From the NCBI RefSeq assembly GCF_024398015.1, contig NZ_CP073747.1:3407001-3471000 (forward strand): a stretch of DNA of 64,000 bases. The letters are read 5' to 3'. Below the pieces are notes generated by a model. The model made no database searches. It was given only the letters and a program-made list of their open reading frames with translations, and was not told the origin of the DNA. Made by a program: the position numbers and the translations under genes. Source of the DNA: Kordiimonas sp. SCSIO 12610. Its GTDB lineage: Bacteria > Pseudomonadota > Alphaproteobacteria > Sphingomonadales > Kordiimonadaceae. Below, piece by piece: positions 15,316 to 16,957 of the stretch. The first letter of the stretch is position 1; every line of letters starts with the position of its first letter.

Positions 15316-16065
15316 ATGATTAAACTCATCATTTCATCGGCAATCACTGTATCTTTGATATTTTTATCTACAAATACAGTTGCACAAGATGCATGGTCCT
15401 ATGAAGGAAATACCGGACCGGATAACTGGGGCAATTTATCCCCCGACTATAAACTATGCAGCGCTGGCCAATACCAATCCCCAATAAACATCGAGGGTAC
15501 TGATCCTGCAATCCTGCATGATTTGCAACTAAACTATAATGTTCATCCAGTTGACCTGCGCCACCACGGCAAACATATCGTTCAGAATTATAGCAACCAA
15601 AGTGTTTTGAATGTTGGTGCCAGCGCGTATGAACTCAAAACCTTGACGTTCAAGAGCCCTGCCGAACACACTATTGCTGGTAATCGCTATCCGCTCGAAA
15701 TCCAATTAACTCATCAAAATAAAAATGGCGAAGTCGCAATCCTAAGTATTTTTGGTGCAACAGGTTCCGAAAATCTTGCCCTTAATGAGATTATAGCCAA
15801 TCTTCCACTTGAAGCAGGACAAACAAGCAAGAATGATAAAGTGGTTTTCAACGCCCGTGATCTGACGCCGCACAATAAGGCCTATTATCGATATAATGGA
15901 TCCTTGACGACACCGCCCTGCACTGAAGGGGTGAATTGGTATATTCTCAAAACACCTATCGAGGCTTCCCCCCAGCAAATTAACATGCTGAATGCATTAA
16001 GCGGTAATAACGCAAGACCCGTAAACACGCGCAACCACCGTATTATTTTGGATACCAATCAATAA
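15316..16065 (+). CDS. Exported alpha-carbonic-anhydrase-like protein lacking the zinc ligands
   Basis: 249 residues with a signal peptide (about 1-23, ending NTVAQ). The alpha carbonic anhydrase fold is clear: WGNLSPDYKLCSAGQYQSPINI, the SPAEHTIAGNRYP block, and NGSLTTPPCTEGVNW near the C-terminus. But the three histidines that bind zinc (94, 96 and 119 in human CA II) are replaced: the QFHFH-type motif reads TLTFK, with Thr111 and Lys113, and the E-x-H strand reads EIQ, with Gln130. Catalysis by the known mechanism should be impossible. The protein is likely periplasmic with a binding or structural role. A SPOR lipoprotein gene starts 13 bases downstream. Confidence 0.88.
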   Translation: MIKLIISSAITVSLIFLSTNTVAQDAWSYEGNTGPDNWGNLSPDYKLCSAGQYQSPINIEGTDPAILHDLQLNYNVHPVDLRHHGKHIVQNYSNQSVLNVGASAYELKTLTFKSPAEHTIAGNRYPLEIQLTHQNKNGEVAILSIFGATGSENLALNEIIANLPLEAGQTSKNDKVVFNARDLTPHNKAYYRYNGSLTTPPCTEGVNWYILKTPIEASPQQINMLNALSGNNARPVNTRNHRIILDTNQ

Positions 16066-16078
16066 ACTGGAACTTACA

Positions 16079-16957
16079 ATGAAACGCCTAAAATCCAGTT
16101 CACTGATGATATCGTGTGTTATTATTCTGTCCGCATGCGGTGCTGGCAACAGCCTAGACACAACAAACATCAACGACCCTGACACCTTAGGGGCAAATGA
16201 AGTGGTGACTTTAGGCCCCATAGAAACGGCCATTTGCGAAAATCGTCCAGAGGGTGTCCCTTCAATCCTTAGTCAATTCCAGTCCTTTCAAACATATGAT
16301 CGTTTTCTTAGTGCCTACGCCTATGAACTGGATGGCCATCCGATAAGGGCAAAGGCGATTTATACGTCACTTGACAAAACCACTTTGGATGACACAGCCG
16401 TCTCGTTAACTTGTGGCAACACAAAACATTTCGAAGGCACAATACGTGCCATCATTACCATGCGCCTCAGCGCTATTGATAGCCAATTGAAATCACTCGG
16501 CGTCAATTTTGTTGGTCCGCTTAAACCGTTGCATGCGGGACTAGCAGCCGCACCGCGTCAACCTATTCAAATAGTGCAAACACCTACTCCAGAGCCAATA
16601 GTGAGAAAGGCCGCCGAGAAACCAAAGGCGATCAAACCCAACGACAAACCATCGCAAGCCAATCCTTTCTTTAAACCACTTGAGGTTACTTTGCCTGAAA
16701 GTGTAAATGCGAATGGTCGATGGTTTTCCCATATCGCCTCCTACGGCACACTAGAAAACGCAAATTCATATCGCAGCAGGTTAGAGGACAAATATCCGGC
16801 ACTTGTCGGTCACATTCAAGACTGGCAAGTCACCGCGAAAAACGGAACCGCGTGGAGGCTCGGTGTCCGCGTTAATGAATGGTCTGACGCGGATCGCTTG
16901 TGTGTGATCATTCGTTCTAAAGAAGAATACTGCCGCGTCCTCGATACAGCAAAATAA
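16079..16957 (+). CDS. Lipoprotein with C-terminal SPOR-like domain
   Basis: 292 residues. A lipoprotein signal peptide ends in the lipobox LSAC (Cys about residue 20). The middle is unrecognised, with a Pro/Lys-rich linker at about 165-205. The C-terminal 75 residues (RWFSHIASYGTLENANSYRSR to the end) match the SPOR pattern, which binds denuded peptidoglycan glycans at division sites. It probably sits on a membrane facing the wall. The 13-base gap to the carbonic-anhydrase-like gene suggests one messenger. The SPOR call rests on pattern and is not certain. Confidence 0.68.
   Translation: MKRLKSSSLMISCVIILSACGAGNSLDTTNINDPDTLGANEVVTLGPIETAICENRPEGVPSILSQFQSFQTYDRFLSAYAYELDGHPIRAKAIYTSLDKTTLDDTAVSLTCGNTKHFEGTIRAIITMRLSAIDSQLKSLGVNFVGPLKPLHAGLAAAPRQPIQIVQTPTPEPIVRKAAEKPKAIKPNDKPSQANPFFKPLEVTLPESVNANGRWFSHIASYGTLENANSYRSRLEDKYPALVGHIQDWQVTAKNGTAWRLGVRVNEWSDADRLCVIIRSKEEYCRVLDTAK

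Follow-up and report, generated by a model that had tools for sequence, protein, structure and literature searches.

Locus and gene features

The window, i.e., the whole stretch of 64,000 nucleotides analyzed here, comes from Kordiimonas sp. SCSIO 12610, whose genome (3.50 Mb, single contig) yielded one gene matching PF00194, the alpha-carbonic anhydrase (alpha-CA) family, and one beta-CA match. The features of the alpha-CA-like gene and of its downstream neighbor are given below, with positions counted from the first letter of the window. Residue names of the type His94 refer to the numbering of human CA II, which we take to be correctly assigned via the motif; ligand patterns such as HHH are written in the order 94, 96, 119.

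15316 to 16065, + strand: putative exported pseudoenzyme of alpha-carbonic-anhydrase fold, 249 aa (open reading frame, PF00194, predicted model)
15316 to 15384, + strand: predicted signal peptide, residues 1-23, ending in TNTVA and followed by QD (by eye from the sequence)
15571 to 15573, + strand: Lys86 at the position of the proton-shuttle His64 (codon read and alignment)
15646 to 15648, + strand: Thr111 (ACG) at the position of zinc ligand His94 (codon read and alignment)
15652 to 15654, + strand: Lys113 (AAG) at the position of zinc ligand His96 (codon read and alignment)
15703 to 15705, + strand: Gln130 (CAA) at the position of zinc ligand His119 (codon read and alignment)
16079 to 16957, + strand: partner lipoprotein, 292 aa, N-terminal helical domain and C-terminal SPOR-like domain (directly downstream)

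The CA-like protein matched PF00194 at 9.8e-35 (120.8 bits against a cut-off of 27), whereas NCBIfam yielded zero matches for it and zero for the SPOR protein. The best solved relatives by sequence (phmmer) were bacterial alpha-CAs with E values of 2e-49 and weaker, and three of these alignments, gap-free across the zinc-binding strands, placed Thr111, Lys113 and Gln130 opposite the ligand histidines of solved alpha-CAs. The AF2 model had a mean pLDDT of 93.0, with low values for residues 1-20, and superimposed on 6im0 over 221 residues with a Z score of 35.6 and an rmsd of 1.0 Å; its top structural matches were bacterial alpha-CAs at 1.0-1.3 Å over about 220 residues. An earlier note on this DNA had described an exported protein of alpha-CA fold in which Thr111, Lys113 and Gln130 replace His94, His96 and His119; codons, alignments and model superposition agree with this description, and at about 1 Å from bacterial alpha-CAs the fold is intact. 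Frameshift or misreading was rejected as the source of the ligand loss, since the frame is open and the codons were read directly, and a second alpha-CA in the host genome was rejected on the single PF00194 match.

By sequence family (PF00194) and by fold the protein is an alpha-CA, but Thr, Lys and Gln stand in place of the three zinc-binding histidines, and the proton shuttle His64 is also absent (Lys86). As an alpha-CA fold that lacks at least one zinc histidine it resembles a carbonic-anhydrase-related protein (CARP), with a triplet that fits neither the R-H-Q of many animal CARPs nor the His-His-Gln of the eta-class CA. The gatekeepers Glu106 (E117) and Thr199 (T198) are retained, as are His107 and Thr200 (T199). 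Cys48 and Cys202, which probably form a disulfide, are also retained and are invariant across the 22 ligand-less homologues described below. H84 and H87, which lie near the pocket, are absent from the sister sequence L004. The nearest relative in a scan of contigs was an uncultured Kordiimonas (L031, 63% identity).

Ligand loss in Kordiimonadaceae

A homologue was found in 28 of 29 Kordiimonadaceae genomes, one per genome, and at least one zinc ligand is missing in 22 of the 28. Three ligands are lost in ten homologues, two in nine and one in three (L019 and L022, HHQ; L024, NHH), and six are HHH (L006, L009, L023, L027, L029 and L030). Position 119 holds Gln in 19 sequences, Glu in two and His in seven; His, Arg or Lys occupies 96, and the residues seen at 94 are T, K, V, S, D, E, N and H. 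The earlier note's reading of a bacterial periplasmic pseudoenzyme thus finds support, over a wider range than the note had proposed, and a one-genome oddity was rejected. A conserved Thr/Lys/Gln set was not borne out: TKQ occurs in the window genome only among the 28 (the sister L004 has TRQ), and what recurs is Gln119 together with His, Arg or Lys at 96. The shuttle His64 is retained in five of the six HHH sequences versus three of the 22 ligand-less ones. In the contig scan, whose search patterns were derived from ligand-less members and whose loci overlap with the genome set (the two counts are not independent), ligands were lost in 19 of 23 loci assigned to Kordiimonadaceae by their name or by sharing a contig with a family genome, and the 57 loci from elsewhere comprised 8 with lost ligands, 47 HHH and 2 unresolved; L089 and L101 were not placeable at the ligand columns. 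In the HHQ sequences L019 and L022, Ser-His replaces Thr199-Thr200; the zinc site is weakened there, and the additional His at 200 next to it might make up for the missing His119.

His83 of the window protein (codon 15562-15564, human position 61, normally Asn in the family) co-varies with the loss of His96: His occupies this position in nine of the ten family sequences that lost His96 (window, L004, L010, L014-L018 and L020, in two separate groups; exception L013) and in none of the 18 others. Outside Kordiimonadaceae it occurs in 11 sequences, five of them HHH, so that His83 is no marker of a new metal site. Regarding the question whether other histidines could occupy the zinc site, the alignments place Thr, Lys and Gln there; judged from sequence, His83 might nevertheless be a moved metal ligand.

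Nei-Gojobori dN/dS was 0.036-0.118 in the eight estimable pairs of 12 tried among sequences lacking two or three ligands (L007/L008, L018/L020, L026/L028, L005/L033, L014/L016, L015/L018, L015/L020 and window/L004, the last at 0.116), with dS of up to 2.6 in these pairs and saturation in four of 16 pairs overall. Values were 0.152 for the HHQ pair and 0.24-0.28 for three HHH pairs (dS 1.0-1.2). No selection difference between HHH and lost pairs was demonstrated by this crude measure, on which the HHH values are not lower and the ligand-less sequences are at least not less constrained. Internal stops were absent from all 28 family homologues. The ligand-less genes are under purifying selection and maintained; a dying gene was rejected on the dN/dS of the eight pairs.

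Number and order of losses

For tree building, five alignment columns were removed (those of the three ligands and of two second-shell positions), and several nodes of the trees have low support. HHH sequences are interspersed among those with lost ligands. In a tree of 31 sequences, the HHQ pair L019/L022 is nested in an otherwise HHH group (98/94), the NHE sequences are sister to HHH L023 (94/87), which branches alone in a tree of 65 sequences, and HHH L009 lies inside a group of otherwise lost sequences (95/92). Constraining all 23 lost sequences (the 22 and L033) to one group was rejected (p-AU 0.011), as was constraining the 20 Gln119 sequences (p-AU 0.013), whereas one group of four HHH sequences was not rejected (p-AU 0.084); the tested groups follow from the ligands but were chosen after the first tree had been seen. 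Close homologues with intact histidines, which the earlier note had named as a sign of one-off decay, do exist (6 of 28), but since the tests rejected one common origin, they point to repeated loss instead.

The number of losses depends on the assumptions, since unordered parsimony on the 65-sequence tree gave 8 changes between HHH and lost, and a model without regain on a tree of 113 sequences (a quick search with some duplicate sequences, and with L273 excluded for its very long branch) gave 17 loss events. The latter comprised 15 events at 119 (14 to Gln, one to Glu), 15 at 94 and six at 96, where the new residue was always Arg or Lys. The chance of at least 14 Gln among 15 is about 4e-8 if Gln is expected in 1/4, an expectation that takes the eight single-base changes of a His codon that alter the amino acid as equally likely and ignores mutation bias and tree error. 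All sequences without His96 also lack His119, and all except L211 (HRQ) lack His94; losses at 119 only (L019, L022, L059/L185) and at 94 only (L024, L063/L186, L206, L240) both occur. From these patterns, 96 is almost always lost last and 94 and 119 first in either order; a strict order beginning with 119 was rejected on the sequences that miss only 94. The likely path would thus lead through HHQ or xHH to the final loss of His96, and the HHQ intermediate would perhaps still be active, as in eta-CA.

Distribution outside the family

A homologue was found in 61 of 196 genomes of the order to which the window belongs, and the 17 of its 33 non-family genomes that were read for ligands were all HHH. 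In a sample of Alphaproteobacteria, 26 of 289 genomes matched the family profile; among 26 loci outside the order, nine had lost ligands (HHQ, DHH, THQ, QRQ, EHQ, DRQ, DRQ, EHH and HRQ), the profile being biased towards such loci as it was built mostly from ligand-less proteins. L185 and L186 lie at zero distance from L059 and L063, with which they group. Among the loci read, HHQ occurs in L019/L043, L022/L047 and L059/L185. A less biased PF00194 search of 398 genomes of the phylum yielded 70 match rows in 62 genomes, of which 61 of 68 readable ones were HHH and seven were not (4 of 65 outside Kordiimonadaceae); L208, L271 and L274 are fragments. Ligand loss is rare in the phylum sample; it recurs in Alphaproteobacteria, and in Kordiimonadaceae it is what most homologues show.

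The R-H-Q triplet was found in the Chromatiaceae loci L077, L080, L095, L099 and L100 (four of the five from Thiohalocapsa), which form their own long branch, and in L272. No SPOR partner was detected around the Chromatiaceae genes, and four neighboring proteins that were scanned had no common theme. Two alphaproteobacterial genomes have two alpha-CA genes each (G317, L185 HHQ and L209 HHH; G420, L186 DHH and L211 HRQ). In L062 (3995-6688, a Spirochaetia MAG) and L068 (498-3245, a Betaproteobacteria MAG), an HHH alpha-CA domain is fused to a methyl-accepting chemotaxis (MCP) receptor with a four-helix sensor and an MCP signalling domain, HAMP being present in L062 only. The fusion is possibly a CO2/bicarbonate chemoreceptor; a literature search gave no alpha-CA/chemoreceptor fusion by title among the matches listed.

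The downstream lipoprotein gene

The partner gene lies immediately 3' of the CA-like gene and on the same strand in 27 of the 28 family loci, the start of its match lying between 16 bases ahead of the CA stop and 46 bases past it (27 loci); such pairing indicates co-transcription at most. A lipobox is present in 23 of 24 partner sequences (missing in L051), Cys20 is nearly invariant, and four further cysteines (C53, C112, C275 and C285) are invariant in 25 sequences. The partner family evolves faster than the CA-like protein, and the partner gene of one genome of 27 (G015) was read with an internal stop. The sole family CA locus without the partner is L030, whose CA groups outside the family clade. 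The genomes without the gene pair, G006 (CA groups elsewhere) and G007 (no CA), gave partial SPOR-domain matches only (best E 1e-8 and 5e-10, whereas all 27 full partners matched at E below 1e-58).

The Pfam scan of the window partner returned a SPOR (PF05036) score of 18.9 bits, under the cut-off of 21, and no other domain; outgroup partners scored 19.5 bits (L052) or gave no match (L053). The AF2 model has a C-terminal beta-alpha-beta-beta-alpha-beta topology at high pLDDT (E215-222, H225-238, E246-253, E256-265, H268-280, E286-289), which is compatible with SPOR. In Foldseek, the partner matched SPOR domains from CwlC and RlpA (1x60, 6i09, 6i05) with a probability of 0.99 and weak E values of 0.04-0.11; nothing was found at E 0.001 or better, and the top-ranked match was a designed protein. 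The lipobox and a C-terminal domain of beta-alpha-beta-beta-alpha-beta order are shared with RlpA-type SPOR lipoproteins, from which the partner differs by its score under the Pfam cut-off and its four further conserved cysteines. In the first-strand motif His and Tyr replace Gln270 and Phe274 of RlpA, and glycan binding by the partner is therefore unsure. SPOR domains bind denuded, peptide-free glycan strands, which are enriched at the septum, according to the excerpted text of PMC6895207, and this suggests a role in the envelope or in division.

The gene pair is also present in the three nearest HHH outgroups (L052, L053 and L055). No partner was found beside the CA genes of L056, L058-L110, L144 and L147-L162 within the available flanks, which are short in some loci (e.g., L056 and L058). 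A weaker SPOR match (22-29 bits) adjoins an HHH gene in the Alphaproteobacteria L204, L205 and L207, and the pairing may be older. Across 17 loci, the distances of CA and partner correlated with a partial r of 0.55 after removal of two neighbors, versus 0.01-0.38 for other pairs, which lends weak support to a link between the two proteins. Five of the six HHH members of the family adjoin the same partner, and catalysis may matter in some family members.

Comparison with known systems

Among bacterial enzymes, Persephonella 6im0, Neisseria 1kop and Sulfurihydrogenibium 4g7a resemble the window protein in fold and length (36-38% identity, rmsd 1.0-1.1 Å). By alignment the periplasmic 6im0 has the three zinc histidines that the window protein lacks; 1kop and 4g7a are presumably zinc enzymes with three histidines as well. 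Open-licence literature on bacterial alpha-CAs contained no ligand-less case, by title or start of abstract among the matches listed, and the same holds for that on Kordiimonas and carbonic anhydrase.

Animal CARPs arose several times, are often R-H-Q, and in the human case are said to regain activity once HHH is restored (PMC4981384, consulted in excerpt). The window family shares with them (VIII, X, XI and cnidarian forms) the alpha-CA fold, the replacement of at least one zinc histidine and the repeated origin; it differs in being bacterial and exported, in having only one alpha-CA per genome, in its SPOR lipoprotein partner gene and in the higher density of losses. The animal triplet recurs in the five Chromatiaceae loci and not in the window, whose TKQ is not among the CARP triplets named in the excerpt of PMC4981384. 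That ligand-less members are mainly animal, as the earlier note had it, holds less strictly, since an apicomplexan case is in print: Toxoplasma TgCA_RP combines Phe-His-Gln with a shuttle Lys, showed no activity in measurements and did not gain any once HHH was restored, as far as the excerpt of PMC5437132 goes. It resembles the window protein in its replaced ligands (two of three) and its shuttle Lys; TgCA_RP differs in being eukaryotic, GPI-anchored and eta-like and in retaining the His at 96. The Plasmodium eta-CA (PfCA) is an active His-His-Gln enzyme with large insertions (PMC6968676, in excerpt); L019, L022, L059 and L185 have its triplet, whereas the window protein lacks both histidines. 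In human CA II, replacement of His94 by Asn reduces activity without abolishing it (cited in PMC5437132, in excerpt), and H119Q has a low predicted zinc probability, the largest loss of zinc affinity being that of H94A (PMC10175565, in excerpt). As a single exchange of this kind (H119Q or H94N) does not necessarily abolish activity (PMC6968676, PMC5437132), the three single-loss members of the family may, by analogy, be active.

Interpretation

A repeatedly derived, conserved family of predicted bacterial alpha-CA pseudoenzymes of the CARP kind is real, and a non-catalytic role together with the SPOR lipoprotein is the explanation we favor. We give a probability of about 0.6 to the reading that the window protein is a pseudoenzyme of the CARP type and serves the lipoprotein as a non-catalytic partner in the envelope. 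Judged from its residues, an alpha-CA fold without the three-histidine site should not hydrate CO2 and would probably hold no zinc; the gene would persist through selection on a function of the fold other than catalysis. The protein may be the periplasmic partner of the lipoprotein, docking, e.g., on its N-terminal helical domain, and the SPOR domain would then hold the pair at peptidoglycan, perhaps at the septum. A cationic side chain at 96 or 94 (Lys113 in the window, Arg or His elsewhere) may replace the charge of zinc beside Glu106. The binding module suggested in the earlier note is plausible, and the conserved SPOR-lipoprotein neighbor is the main new evidence that bears on it.

That the protein is instead a drifting remnant, its catalysis redundant with beta-CA and its gene lingering in an operon, appears quite unlikely. 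A beta-CA (PF00484) was matched in 26 of the 29 family genomes, that of the window among them, the residues at 94 are as diverse as in a relaxed site, and drift extends to the second-shell residues Q92 and E117 and to the shuttle H64; against this stand the low dN/dS of the eight pairs and the intact frames of the 28 homologues, the conservation of the cysteines and the gene pair, and the outcome of the 15 inferred losses at 119, of which 14 led to Gln. The redundancy argument fails, moreover, for G020, whose CA-like protein is VRQ and which, at a completeness of 100, has no PF00484 match, so that another CA class or none must serve there. PF00484 matches are absent from G020 (L017), G012 (L009) and G028 (L024), all of completeness 100.

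Continued activity with another metal or other ligands, after the manner of the eta-class His-His-Gln, is very unlikely for the window protein, whose ligand positions hold Thr, Lys and Gln, i.e., no His, Asp, Glu or Cys. The HHQ sequences L019, L022 and L059 do equal the eta-CA triplet (PMC6968676, in excerpt), NHE, DHQ and EHQ sequences keep potential ligands, E106 and T199 are in place in the window protein, and His83 accompanies nine of ten losses of His96; H64, however, is largely confined to HHH members (5/6 versus 3/22), and His83 outside the family is found with HHH too. A solute or glycan binder, in which the emptied cleft holds an anion, a sugar or a peptide and the SPOR neighbor is merely co-transcribed, is rather unlikely. 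It accords with the invariance of V206 and W208 in the 22 lost sequences, with T198 (Thr in 19, Ser in three) and L197 (Leu in 18), and with the CA-fold dioscorin solved with ascorbate bound (according to the structure title), but pocket positions 62, 64, 92, 94 and 200 vary among the lost sequences, which argues against one conserved ligand.

Starting from the non-catalytic envelope partner, a bolder and tentative extension, which we consider possible but doubtful, is that alpha-CA and SPOR lipoprotein form an obligate envelope module of Kordiimonadaceae at (septal) peptidoglycan. In such a module the scaffold rather than catalysis would be essential, and the zinc site would have been dismantled repeatedly along the same course, starting with 94 and 119 (the latter to Gln) and ending with 96 (to Arg or Lys), independently of animal and apicomplexan CARPs.

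Alphaproteobacterial PF00194 genes are not safely called active enzymes from family membership alone, because a ligand is missing in nine of 26 loci outside the order, found with a profile biased towards such loci; when the phylum was searched with less bias, the figure was 4 of 65 outside Kordiimonadaceae. The family bears on why animals retain zinc-less carbonic anhydrases, CARPs being described as proteins whose exact function is unknown (PMC4981384, in excerpt). Kordiimonadaceae show many stages of the loss together (HHH, HHQ, NHH, xHQ and xRQ/TKQ). They include named Kordiimonas strains and genomes with one alpha-CA gene and a conserved partner gene, so that simple genetics would allow a test of what the fold does apart from catalysis.
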